Virus record (IMG/VR): IMGVR_UViG_3300038659_000297
Coordinates: 1-50,070 of that record
Direction: 5' to 3' (one strand)
Origin: a virus
Length of the DNA: 50,070 nucleotides
Part shown: positions 2 to 49,936 of the stretch, piece by piece
Numbering within the stretch: position 1 is the first letter of the stretch
How the letters are laid out: every line of letters begins with the position of its first letter
Notes under the pieces: generated by a model
What the model was told of the DNA's origin: nothing
The model's database searches: none
Seen by the model: only the letters and a program-made list of their open reading frames with translations
Made by a program: the position numbers and the translations under genes

Positions 2-493
2 ATTGGACCTGAAGAAGCATTGAATAGAAAAAAATTCATTGAAGAGGTCAAAGAAAAGCGTTTGGCTTTAGACAGAATATTTGAGTTTGCTAAAGTTCAT
101 GATAGAGTTGATACAAGTCCAGACGATAGCATCTTTTTGGCTAAAGCTTGGCTTGGTAAAATGCTTGCTGCATTATCTGTAGAATCACCGTACAAAAAAG
201 ACGAGAAAAAAGAGATTCAGTCTAGAGCTGATATCCCTAAAACTGCTGAAAAAGATGAAAGCACTCACTTTGCGGCAGTATGCCATAGATTTAAGTTGCT
301 AGACACTTTTAAAGCAGCTATCGAGCTTCGCGCGGATCTGCAAGAAGTAATTGATTGGATTGATACTGTAGACATGAAGGGTTTTACAGCAGAAAACCCA
401 AGACTAGCAGCAATCGCTAGAACTCAAGCTTACATACACGCGTGTGAAGCAAAGTATTTTTTAGGAGTAATATTAAGCAATCAACAAGTATAA
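2..493 (+). CDS. 5'-partial alpha-helical protein of unknown function
   Basis: The frame is open from the first bases of the window and has no ATG before the first conserved-looking residues, so the true start probably lies upstream; a TTG at 20 is the only internal candidate near the edge. The protein is mostly helical and charged. Two stretches, around FLAKAWLGKMLAALS and around RLAAIARTQAYIHACEAKYF, look like amphipathic helix hairpins. The first, followed by a short ESPY turn, vaguely resembles the helical hairpin of small phage Acb2/Tad1-type proteins that sequester signalling nucleotides. This is a motif-level impression from memory only. It sits one base before the chaperonin gene and is probably co-transcribed with it. 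It could equally be an unrelated structural or regulatory protein. Confidence 0.6.
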   Translation: MGPEEALNRKKFIEEVKEKRLALDRIFEFAKVHDRVDTSPDDSIFLAKAWLGKMLAALSVESPYKKDEKKEIQSRADIPKTAEKDESTHFAAVCHRFKLLDTFKAAIELRADLQEVIDWIDTVDMKGFTAENPRLAAIARTQAYIHACEAKYFLGVILSNQQV

Positions 494-494
494 C

Positions 495-2141
495 ATGAAA
501 GAAACACAATATTCTTTGGATGCCCGTAAGAAATTACTTGCGGGTGCACAAATTATCGCAAAAGCAGTAAAAGTTACATTAGGACCTAGTGGCCGAAATG
601 TATTGATCAGAAACGCTCAAGAAAACAGACCGTTTTCTACTAAAGATGGTGTTACCGTCGCTGGGCAAATAGCTTCAAAAGATCCTATTGAAATGATTGC
701 TATAGAATCATTGCAGGATATAGCAAACAACACAGATGATAAAGCTGGAGATGGTACTACAACTGCCACAGTAATAGCTGAAGCTATACTGAACATGGGC
801 ATTGAATTCCCAGAGGAATTAAATGCTCTAGATATCAAAAGAGGTATTGACGAAACAGTTGAAGTAATAGTCGATAAGCTAGCTGAATTATCAAGGCCCA
901 TTGAAAATGACCTTGATATGCTTAGAAAAGTAGCATTGGTATCATCTAATTACGATGATGAAGCTGCGGATATAGTTACAAAAGCATTTAAAGTTGCTGG
1001 AAGACAAGGTATCGTAAACATCAAAAGATCGTATGATGGTACAACGCACATGACAGCTATTGAAGGTATGGCTTTGCCAATGGGTTACCGTTCTAAGTAC
1101 TATGTAAATAACCACGAAAATGACACTTGTATTTTAGAAGAGCCATATGTATTTATGACCAATAAGAAGATCAACAAGATGAATAACAACTTAGAGTATC
1201 TTCTTAATCAGTGTGCAGAAAACAGCAAAGCATTGTTGATTATCACTCCCGGAATAGACCCAATGATATCAGACATGCTTATTCAAAATGTGCAAAGAGC
1301 TGGATTCAAATGTTGTGTGGCAAATTCTCCAGGCTTTGGAAATGATCAAGAAGAACTACTTAAAGATTTGGGCGCAGTTCTAGGAAAATCACCATTTCTA
1401 GAAAACGATGCTTTACAATTTGAAGATCTTCCTAAGGAAGAAATCTTAAGCAGTTTGCCTCAGTCTAAAGAAGTCACCATTGGTGAACAAATGTCTTCTA
1501 TAAAAGGAGCTTTTGGATTAGATGAAGAAGAAGAGATACGTGTAGAAAAAGAAATGGATGATCGTGCTAACAATTTGAGAGAAAAACTTAAATCCGTTAC
1601 GCAGTCTTATGAGAAGTCAGTACTGCAAACACGTATATCCAGATTGTCAGATGGTATTGCTTATATAAACATAGGCGCTAACTCAGATTCTGAGTATATA
1701 GAGAAACAAGGAAGGGTTCAAGATGCTTTGTATTCAGTTAAGTCTGCAAATGAAGAAGGAATCATCCCTGGAGGAGGTGCTGCATTGCTTTCTTTATCAA
1801 AAATAGAGTTTGGTTTCAGACCAAAAAATCCAAGTAAAGAATACGGTTCTCAAATCTTGATGAAAGCAATTCAGCAACCTTTCTTTCAAATTATAGAAAA
1901 CGTAGGTATTAAAGTTTCTCCAGACGTAATTGATATTATTACTGATAATTTCAATCATGGAATAAACGCTAAAACCGAAAAGTATTCTGAAGATTTGATT
2001 GAAGAAGGTGTAATTGATCCAGTAAAAGTAACTCGAGTTGCTTTAGAAGCTGCAGCATCAATTGCGGGAATGATCCTTACTACAGAATGTGTTATTGTAG
2101 ATACAGATGTGTATAAAAAAGAACCTCAACAACCTTACTAA
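495..2141 (+). CDS. groEL: Phage-encoded GroEL-type (Hsp60) chaperonin
   Basis: This is a full-length group I chaperonin of 548 residues, an ATP-dependent folding machine expected to assemble as heptameric rings in the cytoplasm. Visible hallmarks are LGPSGRNV near residue 29, the ATP-site TKDGVTVA (Asp51), GDGTTTATV at 85-93 (Asp86 equivalent to E. coli Asp87), an apical segment ending in SPGFG, VQDAL with Asp410 equivalent to the catalytic Asp398, and PGGGAAL around 425-431. The region before Asp410 is about 12 residues longer than in E. coli. The C-terminus lacks the flexible GGM repeat tail and ends in EPQQPY. No GroES-like gene lies in the window, so it must use the host co-chaperonin, a phage gene elsewhere, or none. 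It overlaps the next gene by one base (TAATG), suggesting translational coupling. All nucleotide-binding residues that could be checked are present, so it is probably active. Confidence 0.97.
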   Translation: MKETQYSLDARKKLLAGAQIIAKAVKVTLGPSGRNVLIRNAQENRPFSTKDGVTVAGQIASKDPIEMIAIESLQDIANNTDDKAGDGTTTATVIAEAILNMGIEFPEELNALDIKRGIDETVEVIVDKLAELSRPIENDLDMLRKVALVSSNYDDEAADIVTKAFKVAGRQGIVNIKRSYDGTTHMTAIEGMALPMGYRSKYYVNNHENDTCILEEPYVFMTNKKINKMNNNLEYLLNQCAENSKALLIITPGIDPMISDMLIQNVQRAGFKCCVANSPGFGNDQEELLKDLGAVLGKSPFLENDALQFEDLPKEEILSSLPQSKEVTIGEQMSSIKGAFGLDEEEEIRVEKEMDDRANNLREKLKSVTQSYEKSVLQTRISRLSDGIAYINIGANSDSEYIEKQGRVQDALYSVKSANEEGIIPGGGAALLSLSKIEFGFRPKNPSKEYGSQILMKAIQQPFFQIIENVGIKVSPDVIDIITDNFNHGINAKTEKYSEDLIEEGVIDPVKVTRVALEAAASIAGMILTTECVIVDTDVYKKEPQQPY

Positions 2142-2368
2142 TGGTCACAATTAATACAGATAAAAGCAGTCAAACTAAGCAAGTAGCTTTTGACAAAGAA
2201 AAAAATATTATGTATGTTACTTTTAGAAGTAATGGCAGTACATATGTTTATTCTCCTGTAACAGCAAAGCAATTTGACAAATTAATTGAAGCATCAAGCA
2301 TTGGTTCTCACTTACACAAAAATTTTAATAAGAAAACACCTGGTCTTGATATCAGGATAAAAAAATAA
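2141..2368 (+). CDS. KTSC-domain small protein
   Basis: This 75-residue protein fits the KTSC domain (a short beta-rich module named for its Lys-Thr-Ser-Cys residues). Visible features are an initial S-x-Q-type segment, a strand IMYVTFRSNGSTYVYSPV and the following helix with QFDKLIEASSIGSHLHKNF. KTSC domains occur alone in phages and fused to nucleic-acid enzymes such as lysyl-tRNA synthetase-like proteins; the role of the stand-alone form is not established. The gene starts on the last base of the chaperonin stop codon and is followed two bases later by the next gene, so it belongs to the same transcription unit. Confidence 0.75.
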   Translation: MVTINTDKSSQTKQVAFDKEKNIMYVTFRSNGSTYVYSPVTAKQFDKLIEASSIGSHLHKNFNKKTPGLDIRIKK

Positions 2369-2370
2369 AT

Positions 2371-2754
2371 ATGGCTAAGAAATTAGAAAATATGTCAACT
2401 CAATCTATCATATCTGCTCAGCAGATTATCCAAATGGGAAGTGAGCAAATGCATGGTTTTTTTGGAGAAGTCTCTAAAAAACAAAAAGAAGGATTGGTTA
2501 GTTTAAGCTACAAAAACGAGCTTGAAAATCACCTCCGAAAAAGAATCAACGGAAACAATGAGATTGTTGATAATTTAGACAAAGAAATTTTCAAAAGAAT
2601 TGAAAGAGATTTTGGTGGTACTACTCCTAAGATAATGCCATTGCTTGTTCGTAAATTTGAAGAAGAAAAGAAGGACATAGAAGCTATTAAGAAAGAAGTA
2701 GCTTTTGATAAAGAAGTGAAGCAGCTTAAAAAATCAAAAGAGAAAAGACTATGA
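2371..2754 (+). CDS. Small charged coiled-coil protein, unknown
   Basis: This is a 127-residue lysine- and glutamate-rich protein with no family I recognise. The C-terminal third (FEEEKKDIEAIKKEVAFDKEVKQLKK) is strongly predicted by eye to form a coiled coil. The N-terminal half is Gln/Ser-rich. It sits between the KTSC gene and a small basic protein, overlapping the latter by four bases (ATGA), just ahead of the terminase block. A DNA-packaging accessory or head-assembly role is possible from position only. Confidence 0.7.
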   Translation: MAKKLENMSTQSIISAQQIIQMGSEQMHGFFGEVSKKQKEGLVSLSYKNELENHLRKRINGNNEIVDNLDKEIFKRIERDFGGTTPKIMPLLVRKFEEEKKDIEAIKKEVAFDKEVKQLKKSKEKRL

Positions 2755-3074
2755 TAACAAGCGAGGATAGAAACGCAACTATTAAAGATCCGGATATGCT
2801 TAATTGGTTAAGCGAAAATGAAATCCGTAAAATTAAAGTTGAAGAACAATCCTCTAAGTTAAAGTTAACGGTGCCGAAGAAATTCATAGAAACAAAGAAG
2901 GACAATACAATTTACAAAGTTGGATTTCTTCGCACCTTTCTCAAAAAGCTTTATCCAAAGGATTCATACCAGAAAATTGTAGGAATAATGAACGATCGAT
3001 ATCAAATATTCCTTGGTAAAAGGCAGATTGAAAGATATGCAATAGAATACCGAAACAATAAAAAATATCATTAA
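2751..3074 (+). CDS. Small basic helix-turn-helix-like protein, possible small terminase
   Basis: This 107-residue protein ends in a basic helical region (YPKDSYQKIVGIMNDRYQ followed by LGKRQIERYAIEYRNNKKY) that could form a helix-turn-helix. It lies two genes upstream of the large terminase, the usual location of a small terminase subunit, which recognises the packaging site. The assignment rests on position, size and charge only, with no family-specific motif seen. A strong terminator hairpin starts four bases after the stop, so this is the last gene of the chaperonin operon. Confidence 0.65.
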   Translation: MITSEDRNATIKDPDMLNWLSENEIRKIKVEEQSSKLKLTVPKKFIETKKDNTIYKVGFLRTFLKKLYPKDSYQKIVGIMNDRYQIFLGKRQIERYAIEYRNNKKYH

Positions 3075-3077
3075 TTG

Positions 3078-3107
3078 AAAAAGAGGTAGCTAACGCTACC
3101 TCTTTTT
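3078..3107 (+). terminator. Rho-independent terminator closing the chaperonin operon
   Basis: A perfect 13-bp stem (AAAAAGAGGTAGC at 3078-3090 against its complement at 3095-3107) with a TAAC loop, whose right arm ends in a run of T. It lies immediately downstream of the gene ending at 3074 and just upstream of a TAnnTTTG promoter motif. Confidence 0.9.
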
Positions 3108-3110
3108 ATT

Positions 3111-3118
3111 TACATTTG
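3111..3118 (+). promoter_or_regulatory. Candidate Bacteroidetes -7 promoter element (TACATTTG)
   Basis: TACATTTG matches the TAnnTTTG -7 element of the Bacteroidetes housekeeping sigma factor. It lies directly after a terminator and six bases before an ATG at 3124, which would give a very short leader or a leaderless transcript. No clear -33 TTG at the usual spacing was found, so the call is by motif and position. Confidence 0.55.
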
Positions 3119-3123
3119 CTATA

Positions 3124-3747
3124 ATGTATTTAACAAAAATTAATATCAAGACAGGTCTTTTAGAGATAGAAGAAGAAAATGATGGCATTTTGTCAATCAA
3201 AGCTTTTCGTGAAATATTAGTTGATGAAGATTTACGTTTTAAAAAACGATCAGAATTCCCTGGAATACATTGCTTGACTGCTATTGCTCTTACAGTTGAT
3301 TATTTATCTCCAGTAAGATTTTATAGCGACAAAGATCGACCTTTTAAAGCTCAAGAAGAAGTTACTGGCAAACGTAAAGTTTGGGATTGGCCTCAAGAAA
3401 AAATACAACTTGCACTCAAAAAATATTCTGACCTCCAATATGATCCTACTTTAGTAGAAGGCCAAATCCACTACCAAAGAAAAGTGTCAATGCTTGAAAG
3501 GTTTAAAGAATCTGAAGAAAAATACGGTAAAGGTTTCAAGAATAAAAAAGGTGAAGAGATAATTTACGAAAGCCCTGCTAAAATAGCGGCTATGCTTCGT
3601 GTTATTAACACCGACATCAAAGAGTACGAAAAGCAAATTCAAGGCAAAGAAGTTTATGAAAAATCACCAGTTAAAAACGGATATAAACTTTCAAGACTTG
3701 AACAAAAACTTGAAAAGAAAAGCTCATTTTATACGGAAATACGATGA
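3124..3747 (+). CDS. Unknown protein upstream of terminase
   Basis: This is a 207-residue protein that I do not recognise. It has a mixed N-terminal domain containing FPGIHCLTAIALTVDYLSP and WDWPQEKIQLALKKYSDLQYDP, then a long basic helical C-terminal region. The conserved-looking Trp/Pro motif and the location immediately before the large terminase suggest a DNA-packaging or head-assembly accessory. It begins a transcription block right after a terminator and promoter motif. The start at 3124 is the first ATG after the promoter element; no Shine-Dalgarno sequence is present. Confidence 0.75.
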   Translation: MYLTKINIKTGLLEIEEENDGILSIKAFREILVDEDLRFKKRSEFPGIHCLTAIALTVDYLSPVRFYSDKDRPFKAQEEVTGKRKVWDWPQEKIQLALKKYSDLQYDPTLVEGQIHYQRKVSMLERFKESEEKYGKGFKNKKGEEIIYESPAKIAAMLRVINTDIKEYEKQIQGKEVYEKSPVKNGYKLSRLEQKLEKKSSFYTEIR

Positions 3748-3826: not shown

Positions 3827-5998
3827 ATGAAAGTAAATATTGACTGGAACAAATTTGACGGACAGCTCTATAAGCCTTTGGAGAATATGGAGATTCCTGA
3901 TTATAATTCAGGCACTATTTCTTATGATGATTTTTGGGATGATCAAGATTATAAATGTTTGACAGGTTTTAAGCCTAGAAACTTTATGCCTAAAATTACA
4001 GGTGTACATTATTTCTATTTAAACATGTGTAACATTGAACTTATGGTACCTGGGGCAACCAGAAAAACCATGGGCTCTCCGTTTTATAGAGAACTTGACA
4101 GAACTTTATATAATGAACTTGATGATGCTAAAAACAGCCATGGTCTAATTGTAGGTAAACCTAGACGAGTTGGTTTGTCTTGGTATGGAGCATCAGCTTG
4201 TTATTATGAACTGCTTTTTTATCGCGGAAACAAGCTTGGTGTAGCTGCTGGGCAAGATGATAAAGCTCAAGATTTTTACGAGAAAGTAAAATATTTAATT
4301 GAAAATGTAAGAGAAGAATATCGATCTTCTGTTAGTACTAAAAACAGTGACGAAATTCGACTCAGTTACAAACACACTGAAAACAAGCAAGACAAAGAAG
4401 GCGGCCTTCAGTCTTCAATGTACATGAAAACGATGTACGCTAAACCTACAGGTTTTGAAGGTAAAAGTTTGTCAATGGTAGTGTTTGAAGAAGCAGGTCT
4501 TTTTGAAGATATTATTGCAGCTTACAAATCTACTGAACCTTGTTTCAAAGATGGAGCAAATCAATTTGGAACTCCTTTAATTTACGGTACCGGTGGAGAA
4601 ATAGACAAGGGTTCTAAAGGCTACAAAATAATGTGGAACAACCCTGAAAAATACAATCTTAAAAAAATATTTGTTTCTTCTACTGACTTCTATCCTGGTG
4701 ACGGAATTCCAGATGAAAAAACAGGCAAAAAGATTTCTTTTTTTGATTTTAAAACTGGCCGAACAAATAAAAAAGCAGCTCTTGACTATATTATAAAAGA
4801 ACGTCAAGAAAAAGAAGGCTCTGAAGGTTACGTAAAGCATATACAATCATATCCAGTTAAAGAGTCTGACATCTTTATTAAAAACTCAGGAGGTTTACTT
4901 AACCGTAAAAAGCTTAACGCTCAAAAAAATAATTTGGATAATTGTCCTTATCCAAAAACTATTGGACGACTAGAATGGGAAACAAATGATAGCCAAACTA
5001 AATCTCTTGTTTCTCGAGCAAAAAATTTAAAAGAGATTGACAAAATACATTTCAATCGTGGTTCTAAAATAAAATTTGTTGAAGACAATGACCTTGGAAC
5101 TATTAATAAAATACTAGATCCAATTGATCACTCAAGATTACCTTTTAATCCTGACATCATTGGAACAGATAGTTACGATGATGATGTTGCTGAAGGAACA
5201 GGTTCTCTTGGAGCAAGTATTGCGTATCGATTGTTTAGTGGCCCAAACAAAGAATATGATCTTCCTATAGCTTATATTTTAGATAGAGGCAGTTCAGATA
5301 ATGATGATGAGTTTTATTCTAATACATTTCGACTGGCAGTTTATTATGATTCTGAAATGCTTTTAGAACATACTAAAATTTCGATTAAAAATTATTTCTT
5401 AGATATTAACGGTGAAAAACATCTTAAAGCTAGGCCAGATTTAGGAGAACATGGTTATAACTCTAGAGCAGTTAACCAGTACGGTTTAAAAATGCCTAAT
5501 CAATATGCGTTTAATTTTGCCACAAGACTTCTTAAAGCTGAGGTTAATCAAAATTGGAACAACATCTGGTTTGAAGAAATACTTGATCACTTAATAGAAT
5601 TTGGTGAAAGTAACTCGGATTTAGGTTCTGCTTACGCAATGTGTATGTTCTACAAGCTTGAAATGTTTGGAGAAATATCTGACGGTATAGAAGATTCGCA
5701 CGACGACGGTGACGTCATAAATGATATGGGTACATGGGTAATAGAAAACGGAGAATATAAATTTGTAACTTATGGCCAAGCATACCAAGGTGATGATCAT
5801 AATGATTTCTCAAGCAAAGAGTCTATCTTTGACCCTGAATATGATTTAGTTGGGGAAGAAAAAAGAAAATATTTAGAAAGTCAAACTGCTGCAGTTAACA
5901 AAGTAAAAAAAGAACGTGAAGAAGTTTTAGAACGATATGGAAATGACATTTTTGCTTTTACTATTGAAGAACATAAAAGGAATATAAATAATAATTAA
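3827..5998 (+). CDS. terL: Terminase large subunit (packaging ATPase-nuclease)
   Basis: This is the motor protein that packages phage DNA into the prohead. The 723-residue protein shows a Walker A-type loop GKPRRVGLS at 110-118, an adenine-side region with a large aromatic-rich segment (VAAGQDDKAQDFY), and a Walker B motif LSMVVFEEAG at 215-224 with catalytic Glu221. The C-terminal RNase H-like nuclease begins with DIIGTDSYDDD at 443-453, where Asp448 is the likely metal ligand. It is followed by the portal gene, the standard order. The length is at the upper end for terminases, consistent with crAss-like members. The A-rich leader ATTAAAACGAAT replaces a ribosome-binding site. Confidence 0.95.
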   Translation: MKVNIDWNKFDGQLYKPLENMEIPDYNSGTISYDDFWDDQDYKCLTGFKPRNFMPKITGVHYFYLNMCNIELMVPGATRKTMGSPFYRELDRTLYNELDDAKNSHGLIVGKPRRVGLSWYGASACYYELLFYRGNKLGVAAGQDDKAQDFYEKVKYLIENVREEYRSSVSTKNSDEIRLSYKHTENKQDKEGGLQSSMYMKTMYAKPTGFEGKSLSMVVFEEAGLFEDIIAAYKSTEPCFKDGANQFGTPLIYGTGGEIDKGSKGYKIMWNNPEKYNLKKIFVSSTDFYPGDGIPDEKTGKKISFFDFKTGRTNKKAALDYIIKERQEKEGSEGYVKHIQSYPVKESDIFIKNSGGLLNRKKLNAQKNNLDNCPYPKTIGRLEWETNDSQTKSLVSRAKNLKEIDKIHFNRGSKIKFVEDNDLGTINKILDPIDHSRLPFNPDIIGTDSYDDDVAEGTGSLGASIAYRLFSGPNKEYDLPIAYILDRGSSDNDDEFYSNTFRLAVYYDSEMLLEHTKISIKNYFLDINGEKHLKARPDLGEHGYNSRAVNQYGLKMPNQYAFNFATRLLKAEVNQNWNNIWFEEILDHLIEFGESNSDLGSAYAMCMFYKLEMFGEISDGIEDSHDDGDVINDMGTWVIENGEYKFVTYGQAYQGDDHNDFSSKESIFDPEYDLVGEEKRKYLESQTAAVNKVKKEREEVLERYGNDIFAFTIEEHKRNINNN

Positions 5999-6020: not shown

Positions 6021-8267
6021 ATGAGTCTGCTATCTCTACCTGATCAAACCATTCCCGAGTCTAAAAAAGACAAAGAGTGGCACATGTCTCACGTTAAACA
6101 ATACGCTACATTTTCTTTGTCCGACAATTTTAATGATGAAAAAGACAACATGCTCAAGTATTTTAGAGCATACAATTGCGAGCTTAATGAAGAAGAGCAA
6201 AAAAAAATAAAGAGTATTACCTGTCCAAACGGAACTGATCTTGGAGTAGAGTATGTAGTTTATCCGCTTATTCAAACTAAAATAGAACAAATTGTTGGTG
6301 AATATTTAATGAGGCCTATTCGAAGAAAAGCTTATGTCATTGACAAAAAATCTAAAAACAAAAAGTTTGAAGAAAAACTTAAAATGGTTAGTGAAGAGAT
6401 CATGCGAGATCTTACTAAAAAAATGCAAGGCGATTTAGGGTTTGAACCTAAAACAGAAAATCCTGAAATAGAATTGCCAGAAGACATTGAAGAGTTTTTT
6501 GAAAAAGATTTTAAAATGCTAGCTGAAGAAGTAGCAGACAATTTACTAGCATTGTTCCTCGATGTCCGTAAAGAAAAACAAAAGCTACCTCAGCTTTTTG
6601 TAGATTATTGTATTACTGATCGATGCCATGCTATTTTAGATAAAAAGCATGGACATACTACCATGAGAAAAGTGCATCCACTCGATGCTGATTTTGACAT
6701 TGATCCTTATAAAGTAGTCCAGGACAATCACGAATATTTTTTTGAAAATTATTACCTTACAGAAAACGAAATCTATAACAGTTTTACTTTAACCTCAGCA
6801 CAAAAAGTTGAGGTTAAAAAAATGTTTGAGTCTTTCACTCAACCTATAGAAAACGAAGAAGGCCGAAGCAGTGAAGCTTTAGGTGTAACTTCTAAATTCA
6901 ATGGATGGTTCCAGACTTCTAATAAAGTCAATAGACTTAGAATAGTCAATTCTATGTGGAAATCTAGAAAAAGAATTTCTATTAAAATTTCAGAAAACAA
7001 AAAGACTAAAGAAAAAGTTTACCGTAAACTTAAAGATGAAACTGAAGCTAGAAAAAAAGATACAGTAAAACATATTGATGGTGAAATGCCGAGATTTTGT
7101 ATTATGATTGGTCCAGACATTTGTCTTGATTATGGTCTTATGGAGCAAAGGTATTCTTCAAAAGAAAACCCATACGAATGTAGGCTTCCAGTATTATCAA
7201 TTATAAGAGACAATACAACTGGCACATCTCATATTAAATCAGTTGCGGCCAAGCTTTATCAACTTCAAGAAATTGCATCTGAAATACTATTTGAAATTAG
7301 ATTAGCTTTAAAGTCTGCGGGCAACAGTCGAGTGCTTGTTTATGATGCAGCACAAACTCCAAAAGCATTTTCTAAAGGTGGTTATGAAAACGGATTAAAC
7401 CGAGTAATGCATCACATTAAACGTGACAAGCTGATGATCATTAACTCAGCTGAAAAAAAATCTCAAAAAAACACGTTTAACCAATTTACATCTCTTGACT
7501 TATCACAGAAAGGAGCAATACAAGATTTATTTAATGGCCTTGCTATTATTGAAGATCTTGCTGCAAAATTTGTAGGAATATCCCCAGAAAGAGAAGGACA
7601 AATTGGTCAATACCAAACTGCTACTGGTACTGACAAAGCTATACGCGGGAGCACAGCTAGAACAGAAATAATATACACTCCATTTGATCAGTATGTACAG
7701 TCTGTACTTGAAGCAGTATTGATTAAAGCTAAACACGATTATGAAGACGGTGAAGTTATCCAATATATCATTGGAGAAATGAAAACTAAATTCTTGAAAG
7801 TTTACAAAGAATTTTTTGATTCAGATTTTGGTTTGTATCTTTCTGATGGTCGTAAAGACAGAGAAGCCCAAGAACGTATTGATGCAGCTGCAGAAATGGC
7901 TTTATCAAATTCTGCCGGAAGTTCCCCAGATTTAATCATGGGTCTTATAGAAGTTTTTGAAGGAGAAACTGCAGTCGAGAAAAAAGCGGTATTCCAGCGA
8001 ATGGTAAATTCGATGGAAAAACTTAGACAAGAAGCTCAAGAAGCTCAATCTGCTCAATTTAAAGCTGAAGCAGAAAAAGAGAAAGCTATGAGAGATCAAG
8101 ACATGCTAAAAGCTAGAGAAGGCAACACAACAGAAAAAGAAGTCGCAACAATCTATGCTAACAATAAAATAGCAGCAGACAACGTTAAAGCGACTTCTGC
8201 AGAGCGTATTAAAGCAGCTGAATTACAAGTAGCTCAAGAAAAAGAGAATAAAAATAAAGAAAAGTAA
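6021..8267 (+). CDS. Portal protein
   Basis: This 748-residue protein follows the terminase and precedes the scaffold, the expected portal position. Dodecameric portals form the DNA channel at one capsid vertex. Features consistent with crAss-like portals are the N-terminal segment VVYPLIQTKIEQIVGEYLMRPIRRKAYVID split over the first 110 residues, an acidic insertion, a central region with SIIRDNTTGTSHIKS and a long helix (LYQLQEIASEILFEIRLALKSAG), and QYQTATGTDKAIRGS near residue 530. The last 100 residues are an Ala/Glu/Gln-rich coiled coil, which could be the inward-facing barrel or a scaffold contact. Assignment is by context, size and architecture. Confidence 0.88.
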   Translation: MSLLSLPDQTIPESKKDKEWHMSHVKQYATFSLSDNFNDEKDNMLKYFRAYNCELNEEEQKKIKSITCPNGTDLGVEYVVYPLIQTKIEQIVGEYLMRPIRRKAYVIDKKSKNKKFEEKLKMVSEEIMRDLTKKMQGDLGFEPKTENPEIELPEDIEEFFEKDFKMLAEEVADNLLALFLDVRKEKQKLPQLFVDYCITDRCHAILDKKHGHTTMRKVHPLDADFDIDPYKVVQDNHEYFFENYYLTENEIYNSFTLTSAQKVEVKKMFESFTQPIENEEGRSSEALGVTSKFNGWFQTSNKVNRLRIVNSMWKSRKRISIKISENKKTKEKVYRKLKDETEARKKDTVKHIDGEMPRFCIMIGPDICLDYGLMEQRYSSKENPYECRLPVLSIIRDNTTGTSHIKSVAAKLYQLQEIASEILFEIRLALKSAGNSRVLVYDAAQTPKAFSKGGYENGLNRVMHHIKRDKLMIINSAEKKSQKNTFNQFTSLDLSQKGAIQDLFNGLAIIEDLAAKFVGISPEREGQIGQYQTATGTDKAIRGSTARTEIIYTPFDQYVQSVLEAVLIKAKHDYEDGEVIQYIIGEMKTKFLKVYKEFFDSDFGLYLSDGRKDREAQERIDAAAEMALSNSAGSSPDLIMGLIEVFEGETAVEKKAVFQRMVNSMEKLRQEAQEAQSAQFKAEAEKEKAMRDQDMLKAREGNTTEKEVATIYANNKIAADNVKATSAERIKAAELQVAQEKENKNKEK

Positions 8268-9486: not shown

Positions 9487-11160
9487 ATGGGATTATTATT
9501 AAGAGGTGCTGAAGAGCGCTTCAACCCTCAGATTCACACAGAAGGCAATTCATTGACTACGTTGATGAAAAAGCATTTCGAAGTTGAAAGAAAGTCTTTC
9601 GATCTTTTCAAAAAATACAACAAGTTTCAGTCTTGGATGTATTACACTGGTCGTGTTAACCAAGGTGTAAGAAAAGGAAAAATGAAAAAATCTGGTGAAG
9701 GAAACTCCATCAGTGATAATGCTTACCGTATTGCTTACGAAGGTATGGACATCCTTCCAGCTTACTCTTTCGGTAAAGCGGTTGTAGGTTCATGGCATGA
9801 TGCAGGTAGTCCTTCTCCAAACATGACTGCCCTTACTGGTACAGTTACTTTGTCTGGTGTTGCTGCTAATGCAGTTGAAACAGATACTTTGGTATCTCTT
9901 TCTGTACAACACGATCCAGAAAATGGAATTTTTGGTGATAAGTACAATCCAAACGACAAAATCACTTTAGGTGATGGTCTTGGTTTGAACGTTATTATCA
10001 CTAGGCCTGGTCGTAAAGCGTCTACAGGTGATCACTACGTTTACGATGGTAAAACGATTGGTGCTCCAGCTCTTTATGATGAGACTCACTTTGCCGATGG
10101 CGTTGTCTTTGGAGAAGGTGGTTCTGCTTTTGGAGAAGGTTCTTTGAAAGGTTCTCAAAGAACAGCGCGTAACAAATGGAGAATAAATTATTCTTTTATT
10201 ACTCGTTACACGCTAACCATGACTGGTTCTGCTCAAAAGCAAAAAGTCTCTAATATCTACAATGGATCTAATCCAAATGATAAAAGCTGGGAATTTACCG
10301 AAGTTCTTAGAGGTGAAAGAATCTTTAGAATGTTAAATGAGCAAGCTTTACGTTTCTCTAGAACAACTATGGATCCTTCAAGCCATGCTTGGTATGAAAA
10401 CTATGGAACAAACAAACTGAGTCTTGATGGTTTCCAACAAGAATCAGGTATTGCTGCTCCAGTAATTGGAAACGGATGGATTCCTGAAATTCAGGATAAC
10501 GCTACTTTCGATTATAATCCAAACAACGGTTTGGCTCATACCATGATCGAAGCGCTTACGAACACGCTTGCAGTTCGTTCTCCAGAAGGTAGTTCCGGAA
10601 ACACATTTTTAGCTATTACTGACCGTATTGGTCGTACAGCTTTTGATGCCGGAATGAAAAAATTGATGCAATACGATTCTTCTTCTGCTGGTGCTAGTAA
10701 CATTGTTTACAATGTCACTACCGGTAAAGACATGACTCTTGGTTTCGAAGTTACTCAATACGAGTACCTTGGTAACAAGTTTGTACTTATCGAAGATGAA
10801 CTATTTAACCACCCTGGTCTTTACGGAACAAACGGAGGTTTGGTAGGTACTGGAAACATTTACGTATTGAACACTACTCCAGTAGACGGTGTTCCTAACT
10901 TTGAAGTTTTCTCTCGTCAAGACAGAGGTTTCAAACGTAAGTTTGTAGATGGAATGACATCATTCAATCCAGGGAATGAGAACAACAACACTGCCGCTTC
11001 TGGCTTTGACGGATGTTCTATTCACATGCTTTCTGAATTAATGGCTGTACTTTATGATACTAGATCTTGTGGTATTTTAAAAGCTTCAGCTGTTTGGGCA
11101 GGAGGAGATTTAACAGGAAGTGTTATTGCTGGCCAAAAAGCTTCAGCGTTTACTTTCTAA
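9487..11160 (+). CDS. Major capsid protein
   Basis: The 557-residue product follows the scaffold and is bracketed by a long leader and a strong terminator, as expected for the most expressed structural gene. It begins MGLLLRGAEERFNPQIHTEG and contains many Gly/Asn/Thr-rich beta segments, a long N-terminal helix region (LTTLMKKHFEVERKSFDLFKKY) and a C-terminal part with MLSELMAVLYDTRSCGIL and ASAVWAGG. Size and position agree with HK97-fold capsid proteins of crAss-like phages (about 500 residues). Codon choice looks more uniform than in neighbours, with many GGT, GCT and CGT codons. This suggests translational optimisation. No HK97 motif is diagnostic by eye, so the call is contextual. Confidence 0.88.
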   Translation: MGLLLRGAEERFNPQIHTEGNSLTTLMKKHFEVERKSFDLFKKYNKFQSWMYYTGRVNQGVRKGKMKKSGEGNSISDNAYRIAYEGMDILPAYSFGKAVVGSWHDAGSPSPNMTALTGTVTLSGVAANAVETDTLVSLSVQHDPENGIFGDKYNPNDKITLGDGLGLNVIITRPGRKASTGDHYVYDGKTIGAPALYDETHFADGVVFGEGGSAFGEGSLKGSQRTARNKWRINYSFITRYTLTMTGSAQKQKVSNIYNGSNPNDKSWEFTEVLRGERIFRMLNEQALRFSRTTMDPSSHAWYENYGTNKLSLDGFQQESGIAAPVIGNGWIPEIQDNATFDYNPNNGLAHTMIEALTNTLAVRSPEGSSGNTFLAITDRIGRTAFDAGMKKLMQYDSSSAGASNIVYNVTTGKDMTLGFEVTQYEYLGNKFVLIEDELFNHPGLYGTNGGLVGTGNIYVLNTTPVDGVPNFEVFSRQDRGFKRKFVDGMTSFNPGNENNNTAASGFDGCSIHMLSELMAVLYDTRSCGILKASAVWAGGDLTGSVIAGQKASAFTF

Positions 11161-18088: not shown

Positions 18089-21000
18089 ATGGCCAAATCA
18101 ACACAGGGAGCTTTTAGAGTACCAGGAGGATTTAAAATTCAAAATCCATATCCAGTAGATGATAGAATGGTTGTCAATAATGATAACGATTTAATTAATG
18201 CTACAGAATTACCAGATGTTTATCAAGGCATTATTGTTTATTCTAAAGAAAGCAAAAAACATTACAAATGGAATGGTTTTGACAGAACCAAATTAAGCAA
18301 TTGGGAAAGTATTGGAAACCAAAAAAAATATGGACTTCAAGGCCAATCTTATCGAATAACAAATAACAACTCAAATGATGTTATAGCTGCTGATTCTTTA
18401 AAAATTGGAAACTACGTTAGAAACCAAGAAGAGTTAAATTTAATGCTTGCAAATCCAGATTCAAAAATATCTTTTGAAACAGTTTTGTCTACGTGGACTA
18501 AATTTTCTCACAATAATTTAAATGAGCTTCCGGCTAACTTAGGAGAAACTACACAATGGAATTATGATTCTATAAACAAAGAACTAAGTGCAACTATAAA
18601 CTCAACATCACATATTGGATATATAAGCAATGTTCCTCTTTTAAATTACAAGTTAAACGCAAGACTTTTTAGTACTGTGTTAGCAGACAATGATAAAATA
18701 GGAATTGTCATAGCTTTTGTAGAAGATCCAAATGATTTAATTGCAAACGAAGCATTCGGTTTAAATCCCGAAATTTACCCTGATTTAAACACGTCTGATG
18801 AGTTTATTCCTAATCAGCATACTCTTACATTATTTAGAAGCAGAAAAGGCCCAACAGAGTCTTATTTTGTAGTTTACAATTATGAAAAATCAGATTCTAA
18901 AATAATAGAAAACGGTTCTAACCTAGTTTCTAACACTACAGACAACTGGGGCACATCTTATGTTGATGTACAAGTAGAAAGAACAAAAAACACAATCAAT
19001 GTTTATACTTTAAATTTTAGTGATTTAGCTCAAAATGTAAATTTTGAAGACACTAAAATAACTATCGATCTTGAATCTGATAATGATTTAAAAAGATTTA
19101 TAGGCGCTTGTAAATATGGATTTTCAACACATGATCAAAATGGAGCTTCTTTTAAAAACATTTCAATTAAAGGTTCTGGAAATAATGAAATTTATGATTT
19201 AGAAAAAAGAAATGTATGGACTTTAGATTCTAATGAAGATTGGGTGATTGATCCATTAAGAAAAACAGATCAAGAAATCTTAAACAAAACCTTGCTTTAT
19301 AACAAGGTTTTGAAAACTATTGTCTGGTATAATACAAGCAAAAATTTTGTAAAACTTACTCAAGAAGAATTTTCATCTTCAGAAGTCTTTTATTTTATTG
19401 TTACTCCAAACACTACTAATTTAAATACTGTAAATAACGCCAGTGATTTTTCTATAAAAAATCCAGAAAATGCTTTAATGGTTTTTACTTATTATGATGG
19501 AAATGACTTAACTCAAGCTAACATAATAGACACCAAAAGATTTAAACTGATCACTGCTCCTAATTCTCAAATTGGTGATTACAACACTAATAGATTAATT
19601 TCAGGAACGTTTGGAACTAATGGTCAAACATTAGTAGAAAGTAATTTTCAATTGATCTATGAAAAACAAACTACTTCCAGTGATATAAACAGCATAGCTG
19701 AAACTATAGATTTGGGAAATATTACTCCTTCAGCAACAGTCTGGGATTTTATAAATGCTTCAACAGAAAGTTACGAATTAGAGAATCCAAACGTAAACTT
19801 AAACATTGTAAAAGGTATTGTTGATAATAAAACTGTAGAGTATTTATACAAAGGATCAGGTAATATTTATGGATCTGCTTTTGAAACATTAGCAGAAAAT
19901 GATCTTCAGTTATTAAATCGTGATGAAGATATTATTTCTCAAAAAGATTATTCATTTGACTCTTACGTTAAATTGACATCAAGCTCTTTATCTAGCTTTT
20001 TAATCAATCAACAAAACTTTTGTCTATTAAAAACTACAAACAACAATAATCTGTATTTTGTCCACAAAAGTTCTTTAAACTTAAACTTAAACGGTTGCAG
20101 AATAAAATTATCAGAAACAGGACAAGTTTCTGATTTAAATTTAGGTACTGAAGAAAATGATTTTATTTATTACCTAGTTCCAAACACTTTTGAAAAAGAC
20201 AGCACTGGTGTAGGCACTTTTACTTATTGGAGAAAAATAATATTAGCTGACACAGAAAATATAAAAGATAACGCTGTTACATCTAATAAAATTGCAGCAA
20301 ATAATGTTACTGAAACAAAATTAGCTATTGCTGTTAGAAACAAATTAAATACTCAGCCTGATTGGAGTCAAAACAATCAAACTGCTTTAGACTTTATCAA
20401 AAACAAACCGTCCTCTTTAGATGGTGTAGGAATACAATCTACAGTAAACAATAATGACGGTACTTTTACAATAACCTATACTGACGAAACAACCTTTACC
20501 ACAAGTGACCTTACAGGGCCTCAAGGAGTAAGAGGTCCAAAAGGAGAAAACGGAGCTCCGGGAATTCAAGGTTTTCCTGGTCCTCCAGGTGAAGACGGAG
20601 CAATTGGGCCACAAGGAGAACAAGGAATTCAAGGTGAAGTTGGACCAAAAGGAGATACAGGAGACACAGGAATTCAAGGTCAACAAGGAATACAAGGACC
20701 TAAAGGAGACACAGGAGACACGGGACCTCAAGGAGACAAGGGAGACCAAGGAGATGACGGGCTAACCTCTTACCAAGTTTGGCTTGCAAATGGCAATACA
20801 GGTACTGTACAAGATTATTTAGATTCTCTAGTAGGTGCAGACGGTACTAATGGTACTGACGGGAATGATGGAGCCACGGGAGCGACTGGACCACAAGGAG
20901 AAACAGGACCACAAGGTGAGAGCGGAGCTGCAGGTGAAGATGCTACAAAAGACCCCATTCCTTTTAAAACACTTACATCACCAGCCAATGAAATAGATTT

Positions 21001-21268
21001 TGCAGGGGATAACCTAGAGCTATATAATTGGGATGCCCCCACCGATCAAATTAGTTTTACCCTCACAAATCTAAGAGCAGGAGTGCAAAGAATTATAAGG
21101 GTTAATAATGCTACTGCTGTGGGAAGTGAAATTCTTATTAATGGAGATGGATCTGCTAGTTTTATTGGTAGTACTGATAATTGGTTTACAGACGAAATTA
21201 TGGAAATATCAATTTTTGGGCTTTCTACAACTACTTATGAATGGTGGTATAACTTAAAACAAAGATAA
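18089..21268 (+). CDS. Long tail fibre with shared anchor and collagen-like stalk
   Basis: This is a 1059-residue fibre. Residues 1-75 are the shared virion anchor, nearly identical in its first 25 residues to the protein at 16284 (VPGGFKIQNPYPVDDR). The middle ~700 residues are beta-rich and Asn/Ser/Thr-rich, including SKIAANNVTETKLA-like phage fibre wording (actual SNKIAANNVTETKLAIAV). Residues ~809-955 are collagen-like Gly-x-y repeats (for example GPKGENGAPGIQGFPGPPG). They are interrupted by TSYQVWLANGNTGTVQDYL, an insert frequent in phage collagen fibres. A C-terminal beta cap ends in YEWWYNLKQR. It probably forms the trimeric long fibre for host recognition. The collagen DNA is a repetitive GGA/CAA-rich tract and a likely recombination hotspot. 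Confidence 0.85.
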   Translation: MAKSTQGAFRVPGGFKIQNPYPVDDRMVVNNDNDLINATELPDVYQGIIVYSKESKKHYKWNGFDRTKLSNWESIGNQKKYGLQGQSYRITNNNSNDVIAADSLKIGNYVRNQEELNLMLANPDSKISFETVLSTWTKFSHNNLNELPANLGETTQWNYDSINKELSATINSTSHIGYISNVPLLNYKLNARLFSTVLADNDKIGIVIAFVEDPNDLIANEAFGLNPEIYPDLNTSDEFIPNQHTLTLFRSRKGPTESYFVVYNYEKSDSKIIENGSNLVSNTTDNWGTSYVDVQVERTKNTINVYTLNFSDLAQNVNFEDTKITIDLESDNDLKRFIGACKYGFSTHDQNGASFKNISIKGSGNNEIYDLEKRNVWTLDSNEDWVIDPLRKTDQEILNKTLLYNKVLKTIVWYNTSKNFVKLTQEEFSSSEVFYFIVTPNTTNLNTVNNASDFSIKNPENALMVFTYYDGNDLTQANIIDTKRFKLITAPNSQIGDYNTNRLISGTFGTNGQTLVESNFQLIYEKQTTSSDINSIAETIDLGNITPSATVWDFINASTESYELENPNVNLNIVKGIVDNKTVEYLYKGSGNIYGSAFETLAENDLQLLNRDEDIISQKDYSFDSYVKLTSSSLSSFLINQQNFCLLKTTNNNNLYFVHKSSLNLNLNGCRIKLSETGQVSDLNLGTEENDFIYYLVPNTFEKDSTGVGTFTYWRKIILADTENIKDNAVTSNKIAANNVTETKLAIAVRNKLNTQPDWSQNNQTALDFIKNKPSSLDGVGIQSTVNNNDGTFTITYTDETTFTTSDLTGPQGVRGPKGENGAPGIQGFPGPPGEDGAIGPQGEQGIQGEVGPKGDTGDTGIQGQQGIQGPKGDTGDTGPQGDKGDQGDDGLTSYQVWLANGNTGTVQDYLDSLVGADGTNGTDGNDGATGATGPQGETGPQGESGAAGEDATKDPIPFKTLTSPANEIDFAGDNLELYNWDAPTDQISFTLTNLRAGVQRIIRVNNATAVGSEILINGDGSASFIGSTDNWFTDEIMEISIFGLSTTTYEWWYNLKQR

Positions 21269-37479: not shown

Positions 37480-40400
37480 ATGCCAGATATTTTCAAAATG
37501 TTTGAAGAAACTCCTTCAAATAAACAAACTCCAAATCCTGCTTCAGATCAAAAAACTCAACATGAGGATTTTTTAGAATATCCTAATGACAAAAAAGAAG
37601 CACAATCTCAAGGCTCACAATCTCAGCAAGAACCTAGGCGAGCTCAAAACAATTTTGAGAGCGATACTATTACTAATGACCCTAGAGAGCAAGAGCGTGC
37701 TCAAAACACTATGTATTCTAATAGTGAACTTGGAGAGATTTCAACTAAAAACACTAAAAATTTAGAAGCTGATCCTGAGAGTTGGACTCCAGAATATACA
37801 ATGAAGCCTTTCTTGGATGAAACAGGCACAAGTATTGTTCGTGGTATTGGTAACCACATTTTAAAAGGTACTGGAGATATGCTTCAAGTAGCTGGTTCTT
37901 ATGCAGGCTTTGATATTTCTAAAGGAAATATGATTTCTAGAGCATTACAAGAATCTGGTAATGCATTGGCTGATAAAAACAAATCTTATATTCCAGAAGA
38001 ATTACTTGCTGAAAACTTAGATTTTAGCTCGATGATTAATCCTAAATTTTGGAGTACACAAGTTGCGGAAATGATACCGCAAATTGCAGAATTTGTGTTA
38101 TTATCAAAAGGTGGTGCTGGAATTGCTAAAGCTGGAGCTAAGAAATTACTTAAAAACAAAGCAATTAAAACAGTAGCTAAAAATGCTGGTTTAGGTAAAG
38201 CAGCTGCATCAACAGTAGGCGCTGGTAAAAAAGCTACAAAAGTTTTTGGTACTGGCAAAGGTGTTATGGGTAAGCTTGCCACAGACCAAGGGCTTACTTC
38301 TGGAATGTCTGCGGCAACAGGAGCAGTTGGTGGTGGTATTACTAGCAACTTTATGTCTGGATTGCTTAATGCTGCTCAAGTAGTAAATGATCATAAAGAG
38401 CTTAAAGATACCAATGGTAATTTAATTTTTAGCAAAGAAGATCTTTCTCAAATGGCTTCTGGTACTATGAGAAACAATGCCGGATGGTTGCTTTACGATA
38501 TGGCATCATTTGGTATGACTTACGGAGGTGGCTGGAAAGCTCTTAAAGGAATGAATCCTGTAGCTAAAGGTGGTAAATTATTTAACGCAGCTCAGCGTAG
38601 CAAGATATCATCTAAAATGTTTAGATATGATATTGCACCTATTGTAAAAAATGTAGCTAAACTTTCAGGTAAAGCTGGCTTTGAAGGTTTTGAAGAAACC
38701 TTCCAAGAAACATACGAAGAGTGGTCCGCACAAAAAGCTATTTCTGATGTTACCGGAGAACCAATGAAGCACAAAAGCTTTATGGACTTCTACAATTCAG
38801 AAGAAAACAAAGCAACTAAAGTTATTTCTTTTGCTACAGGTATACTAGGTGGTGCCGCGTTTAACCTTTCCACTTTAGTCAATAAGAAAGCTGATGACAA
38901 TTTAAAGCTATACAACCGTATAGAGAATTTTAAAAAGATTGTTGATAAAAATGGTACTGAAGAAGAGTTAAACTGGCAAGAGTATCATATTCGTCAACAA
39001 ATAGCAGACATTGTTATTGATGATAATATTGGTCTTTATGAAGACTTTACAAATAAACTTGTAGAAAACGGAAACATCACTGAAGATGAAAAAGTTGTTT
39101 ACGATGAAATGGTTGAAAATTTTCAAGAGGTTAAAGCCAAAGGGAAACGATTAAATGTAAAAGGTCTTTCTGCTTTGATGTATAACAACGCAAAAGAATC
39201 TTATTTTGACAAAAAGATTGATGAGTATCAGACAATTTCAGAAGAACGTATTGCTACTTACAAAGAGTTAGACGATGGCAATAGTGCTGACGTTAAAAAG
39301 AAAATAAAAGAAGAAGAGCAAATTTTTGAAAAGCGATTAAAAGCGCTTTCTATTTTAAAAGCTGAAGCCAGTCAAAATCAAAGAAATCTTATTCTAGGTA
39401 AAAAAGCCAACCCTTTAGAGGTTGACTTAGTACTTGATGAATTTGGAAATGAAATGGTCATTGGTGGTTTGTCTACTCAAGACTACAACAAATACACTAA
39501 CGATAATGTATCTAAATCACAAAAAGCTGCGGATTCTGCTAAAGGTGTTGTTGGTGGAATTAAAAGTGCTGGCAAAGCTGCTCAACAAGAAGCCGAGAAC
39601 CGTGGATTTAAAATGCCATCTATGTCTAACTTATCTAAGCAAGGCAAAGAAATGGTTAATAAGGTTATGGATCAGTTTAAATCAGCTAAAGAGCCAGACA
39701 ATCAAGAAACAGAAGAAAACACTGCAAAGTCAAAAGAAAAGGCATCAGATAGCACAGATGCAGATAATCAAGAACAAGAAAATGCTCAAACTGAATCTAC
39801 TAAAACTGAAACTGAAGCTCAGCAAGAAGCTCAGCAAGCTGCAGAAAAAGTTGAGATTGATCCTAATGAAGTTGTAAGCGATGAGATTTATAAAGCTTTT
39901 CAAGAAGAAGGTGAGCTTGATTTAAAAACTATTCAGGACATTGCTACTGCTATTAGAAAGAAAGGAAAGCTTTCTCCACGTCAGGATGAAATGAGAGATA
40001 AGAATAAAGAGACTGTAATGCGAGAAATCACAAAACAGATACTTAACACTTCTACTCAAGCAAATGAAGGCGACACTATTTCTTCTCAACAACCAGGTAC
40101 TAAAAAAACAGAATCCAAAAATCCAGAAAACAAAGAAGATTCTGAAGTAGATAAAGAAGTTGATGAAGAAGTTGATGAAGAAGTTGAAGATGAAGATTTG
40201 ACTGATGCTGAAAAAGCTTTTGTTAAGACAGTAGCCAAAGGAAAACAAATAGGTAAAACTATTGGTGACGTTGGTAAAAGAAAACTGGCCAGAGCAAAAG
40301 AGCTTTATCGTTTAAAGAAAAAAAATACTGAAAACGCTGAAGAAGCAGTTGGGTCGGATCGTAAAGCCGGAACAACTAAAGAAAAAACTATTCCATTAAA

Positions 40401-43400
40401 AAATAGATTACAGTCTATTTTTATGAATGATGTAGTTAATAAAATCCGTAACCGTAAAAATCCAGACGTTGAGAACCTATCTCAAAACGAAATGGATAAT
40501 TACCTCAACACTATGAGTGCTTACAATGAGTTTGGTCCTACGGAACTAGACAAAATGATTGTAGTCAATCATCAGCTTAAACGAATGTTCCCTAATGCCG
40601 AAACTCCTAAAGAAGCATTCATTGTCCGTAATATGTTTCAAACTCTTGGAAGAGATGCGCTGGGACATACTATGGCTGGAACAATTTTTATTGATAGCAA
40701 AGCATGGAATCAAGATAGAATATTTATGCACGAGATGTCTCACATTTATTTTCAGCTTGCTAAAAACGAGCCAGAGACAAAAGAAATGCTTCGAAATGCT
40801 ATCAAAGACAAACCGCTTTTAGATAGAGTTAAAAAGATGTACGATCATCTTACTTATTATTCTATTGACATACCTGGTGGAAAGCCAGAAAAATTTACTA
40901 AACAAAACATTTTTGCTGAATACAAACGTTATGGTGTTAAACCAGAAAATCTTGAAGCTCAGCTTGAATTTGAAATTAAAGAAGGAACTCTTAACACGGT
41001 TCCTTTAAGTCAGCAAGGACTTATACTAGAAGAATTATTTGTAGCTAGACTTGAAGGTCCATTATCTGATAACTTCGATAAAATATTTCAGCCTAAAAAT
41101 GAACCTAGACGTCAAAAAGATGTAAAAAAATGGTGGGGATTAATTCGCAAAAAAGGGGAAATTATAGAAGAAGATGATGGTGTCAATTTCATGTTGCGAA
41201 AATTAAGTGAAGACGGTATTCCAAGTGGTAATCTAAAAGATTACATACTTGATACGTTTAAAGCAGTTACTGTAGGTGTTGATGTAAGCGCTGAAGGCAT
41301 GGATGCTTTAGCTATGGATTTAACTCAAGCAGAAAAAGCAGAGCTTGAAAGCATTAGAGATCGTAAAGTTGCAGTAGCTGATTTTGAAATTAAAAATGCT
41401 GGTAATATCAGAGAACAAGATATTATCACTGATTTAGAAGAAGATCTTGAAGATGATGGTACTTCGTTCTATGATAAAGATTTTGAAAGTAAAGCTAAAG
41501 GCGCTACTCGAGTGATCAAACGTTTTGGCCAAGTTTACAACAAAGCTATGCGTAAACGATTCCTTGCTAAAAATAAAGACAAGAAAGCTGACTACAAAAA
41601 AGTACCATTGTTTGATAGAGATATGTTTGAATCTACATTGTATTCTCTAGCTGTAGAAAACAAAACCGCAAATGAGTTTATAAGACAAATAGAAAATTCT
41701 GAATTGAGAGAAGTTAAAGCTTTTGATTCTTATATGAAAAGCATTCATGGAGACAATAAATTGAATTTTTACAATTCAATGCATTTTGTTTTTTCAAACG
41801 CAAAACATATATCTGGTTTTAATAATACTATTGACAACAACGGTAAGTATAGCTTTAACAATTCAATGTCTCAACTTGAAGTTCACAAGTCTAATTTAGT
41901 TTTAAAAAGACTTAAAGATGAATTTGATAAGCACATATCACCAAATTCAAATTCACCTATTTACAATAAGTTTCAAGAATCTGTTTACAATATCTACAAT
42001 GGTTCTCAAGACAAACAAGATCTTTTTAATGTGATTGAAGCTCTTGTTCCGGCTTATGGACAGTTTAATCTTCAAAAGATATTAGATCAAGGTCATGTTA
42101 CTTATAAAGGCCAGACAATGCCAATAGAAACATTAGTCTATGGCTTTATTAAAAAAAGAATGATGTTTCAAAAAAATGTCACGCGTGGTGATTACAAAAA
42201 AGCTCAAGAAGCTTACGCTAAACAACTGGCTAGAATACCTGCTATAGAAAACAATCCTTTTTTTGCTTATGAAGGTGTCAATATCCCTATTAAAATATTA
42301 AAAACTAGCTCTGCTGCTAATTTCAATCAATTTAAAGCTCTTCCTTTGCCGGGGGATCCGGCCAAAGGAATTTACATCTTTAACGCTAGACCGCTTGTAG
42401 AATCGTTTATTAGCACAAACAGAAAATTCAGTCCATTGAGCTCTATAATGAACGCTCAAAAAAATATGACTCCAGTACGTATTACCAACAATCATTTGAC
42501 AAAAGAAGTTGACAATATGATTGAGTTTCTTACTCCAGATGCTGACGGTAATATTCCTACTGAAGAACAGTTTTTTGATCGCTTTTCTCATTTAGCTGAA
42601 AAGAATAAAAAAAGAGCTGGTAAAAATTACGTTCCAAATTTATTCCTTCAAAACATATATGACAATATGCAAAAAGGAATATTGCCTACTATCTCACAAT
42701 ACCACGGTATTGAAAACGTATCTGATAGAAAAGGTAATTTGTACGCTGGCTCTAGTGCGCTTGAGCAAGGCATTGAAGATTTTATGACTTTTGTTACAAG
42801 TTCTAGAAATCCTAATGGCAGTAAAAACAATTCCTATTTAGGTAGCGTGGGAACGTTCTCAGATTCTCCACGAAAGTTTTTTATGAACATGCCTAGAATT
42901 AAGTTTGAAGACGTTTTCTCTTATGATGATGATGGTAAACTTAAGTTTCATTCTAAAAGCAAAGGGAACGTTATGACAAGCGCTCAGCATTTATATGATG
43001 AGTTGTTTTGGGATGGCCCAATTGCAGGAAGTAGAACTAAGTTTCAAAACAAGCTTAAAGATGCAGTTCGTAATGAAATTCGTTTTATAAATAAAAACGG
43101 AGAAGAGCTTGCTAAAATAGACAAGCTAAAACCTTATTTCAAAAAAGACAATCGATTAACTCCAGAAGGAATCGAAATGGTTTCTGAATATGTTATCAAC
43201 AATATCGTGAATGGTCAAAATGTTACTGAAGTATTTTTACCTGGTATAAAAGGGGGCGATATTGTCAAAAGAATGAAGATGAACTCTTCTCCTATATTTT
43301 CTGCTAAAAATCCAAACTTTAAAATTGAACCTTTATTTTTTGCTGATGAAATAGTCAACGGAAGTATAGCGGGAACCGATTCAGGAATGTATATACTTGA

Positions 43401-49516: not shown

Positions 49517-49936
49517 TTAACTAAAATGCTTGAGATAGTTATCTAACAACCCTTTTATATTATCGGCACCAACAGGGTTTGCAGAGTGTACAAATATTTC
49601 AGGCAATTTATTTTTATTGTCCATACAATAATTTACTAACCATTTAGCACAGTCCATACCTGTTTTTTCTTGGTAATTTTGACCACGCCACTCTTGAAAC
49701 TTCTTACTTTCATCATAATTATTCCAAAAGTATTCAGGCGTATAATGTTCATCTGCTAAATCGTGGTCAAAAGAAATAGCATCAGGTAGTCCAAAAAGTT
49801 CTATCCATTTAACAAACTGTTTGTAATTTAGAACCCAATTTATATTGTAGTGTTTGCCATTTTTACGTGTTGGCACTTTGCCTTCTTCGTTTATATAAGG
49901 GTTTCTAATATCATCTAACCAAAGTAAGTTTTTCAT
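49517..49936 (-). CDS. Receiver-like protein of the cyclic-phosphate processing (cREC) type
   Basis: This 139-residue protein starts MKNLLWLDDIRNP, with Asp8-Asp9 as in receiver domains. It then has AISFDHDLAD (FDHDL at 56-60), TGMDCAKWLVNYC and IFVHSANPVGADNIKGLL (Ser118). This set corresponds to the receiver-like family known as cREC, linked to cyclic-phosphate processing, rather than to a classical response regulator. The canonical receiver Lys after the last strand is not evident. The family's exact reaction is not settled. It is transcribed toward the giant gene and separated from it by two terminators, so it probably belongs to a different (early or middle) expression class. Confidence 0.75.
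   Translation of the reverse strand: MKNLLWLDDIRNPYINEEGKVPTRKNGKHYNINWVLNYKQFVKWIELFGLPDAISFDHDLADEHYTPEYFWNNYDESKKFQEWRGQNYQEKTGMDCAKWLVNYCMDNKNKLPEIFVHSANPVGADNIKGLLDNYLKHFS

Follow-up and report, generated by a model that had tools for sequence, protein, structure and literature searches.

A GroEL encoded by a crAss-like phage and its probable, highly diverged GroES partner one gene upstream

A crAss-like phage encodes a complete GroEL, and we consider it likely, with a probability of roughly 0.78, that this protein belongs to a group I GroEL/GroES system of the phage itself, in which a very divergent GroES, encoded one gene upstream of groEL, serves as the lid. The window, by which we mean the whole 50,070-bp stretch analysed here (IMG/VR record IMGVR_UViG_3300038659_000297), contains the groEL gene near its left end. 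The GroES-like gene lies just beyond that end and is seen in contigs that extend further upstream.

Phage GroELs are already known to be common, and a groEL upstream of the terminase gene is annotated in Cellulophaga phage phi14:2. What is unusual here is the extent of the GroES divergence and the fact that conserved residues of the ring-ring contact have been lost. In the open-access literature we found no paper linking crAss-like phages to GroES, apart from a passing mention of a GroEL/GroES neighbourhood in a DNA-polymerase paper, and no description of the unrecognisable GroES partner of this clade. The findings correct a false "orphan chaperonin", and with this pair one can directly test the joint divergence of a chaperonin and its lid after release from host clients.

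The window is a fragment of a crAss-like phage genome

The window is a linear contig in which end repeats are absent. It carries a Crass-type capsid, a portal and a terminase, and it is a fragment of a Crassvirales genome. The best matches of its terminase are crAss-like phage records, at low identity, while its major capsid protein scores 33.4 bits against Crass_capsid (PF23898; cut-off 27), a cut-off also passed by the capsids of four longer relatives (76-83 kb). Provided that the ~82-kb relatives are near complete, the window perhaps represents about 60% of the genome.

The groEL gene begins ~3.3 kb upstream of the large terminase start at 3827. It sits in a block of genes running in one direction, 1 bp after the preceding ORF and with a one-base overlap with the next, followed by terminase, portal and capsid. 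The late-gene setting given in the preliminary description is thereby borne out. The features of this region are as follows.

-606 to -307 (L006:6900-7199), outside the window: GroES-like gene, 99 aa, ending 307 bp before window base 1
2 to 493, plus strand: C-terminal part of an ORF of ~262 aa, between the GroES-like gene and groEL; open at its 5' end, with full-length orthologs in 99%-identical and in diverged contigs
495 to 2141, plus strand: groEL, 548 aa, intact from ATG to stop; PF00118 E 1e-50, PHROG 5725 E 6.5e-124; catalytic residues kept
2141 to 2368, plus strand: small, conserved ORF of 75 aa that shares one base with the groEL stop; phrog_3292, a family of unknown function, E 5.4e-12; present in all relatives
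2371 to 3747, plus strand: three small conserved ORFs (127, 107 and 207 aa) between the groEL block and the terminase, in the same order in relatives
3827 to 5998, plus strand: terminase large subunit; phrog_6681 E 2.8e-50, best records from crAss-like phages
6021 to 8267, plus strand: portal protein; phrog_6547 E 4.2e-47
9487 to 11160, plus strand: major capsid protein, 557 aa; Crass_capsid PF23898, 33.4 bits

Elsewhere in the window, positions 18089-21268 encode a 1059-aa tail-fibre-like protein with collagen repeats (PF01391 E 2.8e-18), and positions 37480-49317 form a single 3945-aa ORF that matches no PHROG and nothing above the Pfam cut-off. A DxDxD-type polymerase motif, which would link to a virion RNA polymerase, was not found in the giant proteins of the window. 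At the right end, on the minus strand (49517-49936), lies a gene whose product has a cyclic-phosphate processing receiver domain (PF20274 E 1.5e-20).

The phage GroEL is complete, with an intact ATPase site and altered ring-contact residues

The protein is recognised as a chaperonin by both family collections. Cpn60_TCP1 (PF00118) matches residues 21-536 with 173 bits against a cut-off of 34.3, and PHROG 5725 is annotated as "chaperonin groEL". Identity to E. coli GroEL is 34%, and the closest bacterial GroELs, mostly from Bacteroidota, are 35-38% identical. The residue comparison used E. coli GroEL together with 41 further bacterial GroELs. The ATP-binding and catalytic residues checked (G32, P33, D52, D87, the GTTT motif, D398, G415 and D495, E. 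coli numbering) are all identical to those of E. coli. Across the eight-member clade to which the window GroEL belongs, D52, D87, the GTTT motif, D398 and D495 are also kept, apart from one change of T to S. The preliminary description, which reported a complete GroEL with conserved ATPase motifs, was right on both counts.

That description also placed about 12 extra residues in the apical/intermediate region. The extra length is indeed apical: this domain has 199 residues versus 186 in E. coli, with +4 near E. coli positions 300-320 and +8 near 330-350, and the insertions are common to all eight clade members. The intermediate domain contributes none of it, its two segments being essentially the same length as in E. 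coli (58 versus 57 and 32 versus 32). The tail past the last core strand is short, with 11 residues versus 24 in E. coli. It ends in ...DTDVYKKEPQQPY and is not Gly-Met-rich, in agreement with the earlier remark that the GGM tail is missing. A Gly-Met-rich C-terminal tail is usual in group I chaperonins, though not universal, and the GGM tail is also absent from the GroELs of phages phi14:2, Calle_1 and DAC16.

Several positions outside the ATPase site are changed. At the ring-ring contact, the window protein departs from E. coli K105, A109 and R452, three residues that hardly vary among the 41 bacterial GroELs. R452, which is invariant in those 41 sequences, is F, G, L, E or N in the window clade and is changed in every one of its eight members. 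Because these three residues are changed, the ring stacking of the window GroEL may differ from that of E. coli. In the GroES-binding helix, L259 and V264 of E. coli are replaced by S and Q, which would be compatible with an altered lid, while Y199, S201 and L237 are retained. None of these changes demonstrates a single or open ring. The GroEL of one diverged relative (L044:2361-4091) has a unique insertion of ~26 residues at the ring-ring contact loop near E. coli position 461.

The phage GroEL belongs to an old virus-only clade

The window GroEL and seven metagenomic viral sequences form one virus-only clade (SH-aLRT 100) in a tree that took in 42 bacterial and other viral GroELs. The stem of this clade measures 1.82 changes per column. 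The tree comes from a quick search and has long branches, and the positions of phi14:2 and Calle_1 in it are unreliable. The window GroEL sits in an old virus-only clade, and the phylogeny against host and phage chaperonins contradicts a recent transfer from the host. The closest bacterial sequences do come mostly from Bacteroidota, the likely host phylum, as would be expected had the phage recently captured its host's groEL. Such a capture is nevertheless very improbable given an identity of just 35-38% to the nearest bacterial GroELs, the strongly supported clade with its long stem, and the presence of the apical insertions in all eight members.

A conserved gene lies one gene upstream of groEL

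No GroES was found inside the 50-kb fragment, and PF00166 searches of the window, of near-identical contigs and of relatives returned no matches. Contigs with 99% identity to the window extend upstream of its start. One of them, of 25 kb and including L006, matches the window at 99% identity across 15 kb, and window base 1 corresponds to L006:7507. Upstream of that base lie the remainder of the ORF cut by the window edge and then the 99-aa ORF.

Four near-identical contigs carry this upstream gene. Seven diverged lineages (L005, L007, L033, L034, L035, L036 and L044) have it one gene upstream of groEL, and among them its product diverges down to ~30% identity. The order GroES-like gene, ~260-aa ORF, groEL is kept in all eight sampled lineages of the window GroEL clade, and the GroES-like gene is single copy in the four long relatives. 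With 99%-identical contigs carrying it, the window genome very probably has its own GroES-like gene. The statement in the preliminary description that the chaperonin comes without GroES holds for the fragment, but the starting point of the record very probably created this impression: no GroES was seen because the contig begins too late. Taken alone, the lack of PF00166 matches would have favoured a GroES-less chaperonin; it was set aside in view of the predicted fold of the upstream ORF.

Between the two genes lies an ORF (window 2-493; L006:7211-7999; orthologs in the relatives) whose N-terminus is acidic and variable and whose C-terminal domain, helical in the AlphaFold model (pLDDT 83), is conserved. 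A Pfam search gave no match for it, and Foldseek with its model gave nothing significant. Structural re-alignment returned only ferritin-like helical bundles (Z ≤10.9), below the trust level for helical proteins. Since its place is fixed, the constant position suggests a chaperonin-linked role. Two near-identical contigs have an additional 72-aa ORF (L002:1605-1823 and L003:1740-1958) between the ~262-aa ORF and groEL, an insertion of ~350 bp; it is present neither in the window nor in L006.

The upstream protein is predicted to have a GroES fold

AlphaFold2, run with nine homologs, predicts a beta-barrel for the upstream protein (pLDDT 85.4, pTM 0.80). A flexible loop follows the first strand of the model: residues 21-40 are of low confidence and occupy the position of the GroES mobile loop. 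In a Foldseek search of the PDB, ranks 1-7 are all Cpn10, GroES or gp31, led by human, M. tuberculosis and T. thermophilus Cpn10 and T4 gp31, none of which passes E 1e-3. After re-alignment with VIA-align, ranks 1-15 are Cpn10, GroES or gp31 (Z 7.3-8.8), and the GroES-like domains of alcohol dehydrogenases rank below them. In a viral structure library, the named matches among the top 50 are all GroES/Cpn10-type chaperonins, with a best E of 1.7e-4.

At the sequence level, the GroES-like family comes first among ~30 local gene families in profile-profile score against GroES, and a GroES profile matches the L036 member at E 6e-4. The rank enrichment of the family (p ~5e-6) is only indicative, its members being related. 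Neither PF00166 nor PHROG 3188 matches the protein up to E 10, and no Pfam or PHROG family covers it. The hhalign probability of the family against GroES is only 22%, and a PDB sequence search with its profile gave chance matches only. In the loop, the I-V-L tripeptide of GroES is not conserved, and RIIE or RILE occurs in some members only. Because there is no significant HMM match, the hhalign probability is 22% and no PDB Foldseek hit reaches E <1e-3, the case for GroES identity is made by predicted fold and gene position. We assign the protein a GroES fold and a probable co-chaperonin role but leave it outside the Pfam family, and read it most simply as a highly diverged GroES. By fold prediction, as distinct from binding, a GroES is encoded alongside this GroEL.

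The barrel might instead serve some other purpose, for instance in the virion or in regulation, with a genuine phage GroEL working with the GroES of the host. Its similarity to GroES does lie below sequence recognition, and alcohol dehydrogenases also contain GroES-like folds. We regard this as unlikely, since Cpn10 and gp31 are matched above the dehydrogenase domains, the protein is GroES-sized, and it is linked to groEL in eight out of eight lineages.

A proposed encapsulating cycle for phage structural proteins

The GroES-like gene and groEL head a closely spaced block that runs in one direction into terminase, portal and capsid, and on account of this arrangement the chaperonin pair is most likely co-expressed with the packaging and head genes. 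We propose that the apical domains of the phage GroEL would bind unfolded phage structural proteins, that in an ATP-dependent cycle the phage's own GroES would close the chaperonin, and that the folded subunits would then be released.

A chain of ~557 residues is near the size that the GroEL cage accommodates, and chains of 1537 or 3945 residues do not fit. The major capsid protein is our best guess for the client, because phages such as lambda, T4 and RB49 use chaperonins for their capsid proteins (PMC9598537) and because its 557 residues come near the cage size, whereas the 1537- and 3945-aa proteins of this phage do not. The preliminary description had proposed giant cargo or tail proteins as clients; no evidence ties the GroEL to the 1537- or the 3945-aa protein, and the capsid protein would fit the cage better.

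The same description raised the possibility of an open-ring mechanism. The window GroEL would then, like the chaperonins of phages EL, OBP and AR9, be GroES-independent and open, perhaps with a single ring, possibly acting on giant virion proteins. The absence of a GroES within the window, the altered K105, A109 and R452 (the last in all eight clade members) and the replacement of L259 and V264 by S and Q would fit such a chaperonin. We consider it improbable, since every related lineage checked has, one gene upstream of groEL, a gene for a divergent GroES-fold protein, Y199, S201 and L237 are kept, and the window GroEL is 34% identical to that of E. coli, whereas EL-type chaperonins have diverged much further (22% for EL, PMC7185714).

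Returning to the paired system, we tentatively suggest that the clade may be a distinct viral chaperonin branch, with an unrecognisable GroES, lost ring-ring contacts and two apical insertions. On this suggestion, which we hold as possible rather than probable, it would form a private, possibly single-ring encapsulating pair whose parts are no longer interchangeable with host GroES and GroEL.

Comparison with known systems

In one close annotated counterpart, Cellulophaga phage phi14:2 (Crassvirales, Steigviridae), groEL (g105) precedes the terminase and portal genes and runs in their direction. As in the window, PF00166 has no match in the genome and the GroEL lacks the GGM tail. Unlike the window protein, to which it is ~34% identical, the phi14:2 GroEL is shorter (490 aa) and has no apical insertions; more small genes separate it from the terminase, and the genome has no match to the GroES-like profile of the window clade. 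The gene directly upstream of groEL, g106, was considered as a GroES and rejected, its product being acidic with no barrel-like pattern by eye. A separate gene, g096 (L008:7767-8156), annotated as hypothetical and located two genes upstream of TerL, shows GroES-like stretches by eye (IIAVGNGTEFKPGDKILLD ... ISDSYILATV) and is the genome's best match to three GroES profiles (E ~0.1). This isolate may likewise carry a hidden GroES, with g096 as the candidate.

Flavobacterium phage immuto, Bacteroides phage DAC16 and Cellulophaga phage Calle_1 resemble the window in carrying a phage groEL with a nearby GroES gene, and in Calle_1 one gene likewise separates the two. Unlike that of the window clade, the GroES of these phages gives a Pfam match (E 1e-6 to 1e-21), and apical residues resembling those of E. 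coli can be recognised in immuto and DAC16. In DAC16, both gp261 (L011:7718-7981), a clear GroES (PF00166 E 1.6e-21), and gp262 (L011:7995-9617), a GroEL, are labelled hypothetical. More broadly, GroEL relatives occur in 227 phage records, a few of which are bacterial contigs filed as phage, and many of the phage records with GroEL also carry a recognisable GroES.

T4 gp31 and GroES/Cpn10 share the predicted fold of the upstream protein (1g31 Z 7.5, 1wnr Z 8.8), but with ~10-16% identity and no HMM match. T4 gp31 works with the GroEL of the host.

GroEL homologs have been described in 36 environmental genomes of marine Bacteroidetes phages, termed "group 2" (Nishimura et al. 2017, PMC5332604). 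By their description these are, like the window, podovirus-like genomes with a GroEL; the group includes phi38:1 and IAS virus, and the paper does not mention GroES. Together with phi14:2 and the 227 phage records, these genomes show that the setting which the preliminary description had regarded as unusual has precedents.

The phages EL, OBP and AR9 also encode a Cpn60, and their chaperonins reportedly function in the absence of a co-chaperonin, in open rings that are double or single (PMC7185714, PMC9598537). They differ from the window clade, in which a GroES-like gene is linked to groEL in all lineages checked. The EL authors themselves left room for a distant GroES homolog (PMC7185714), and the present case suggests similar caution for other phage GroELs described as GroES-less, which may have an unrecognised, fast-evolving lid encoded next to them or just off the contig.
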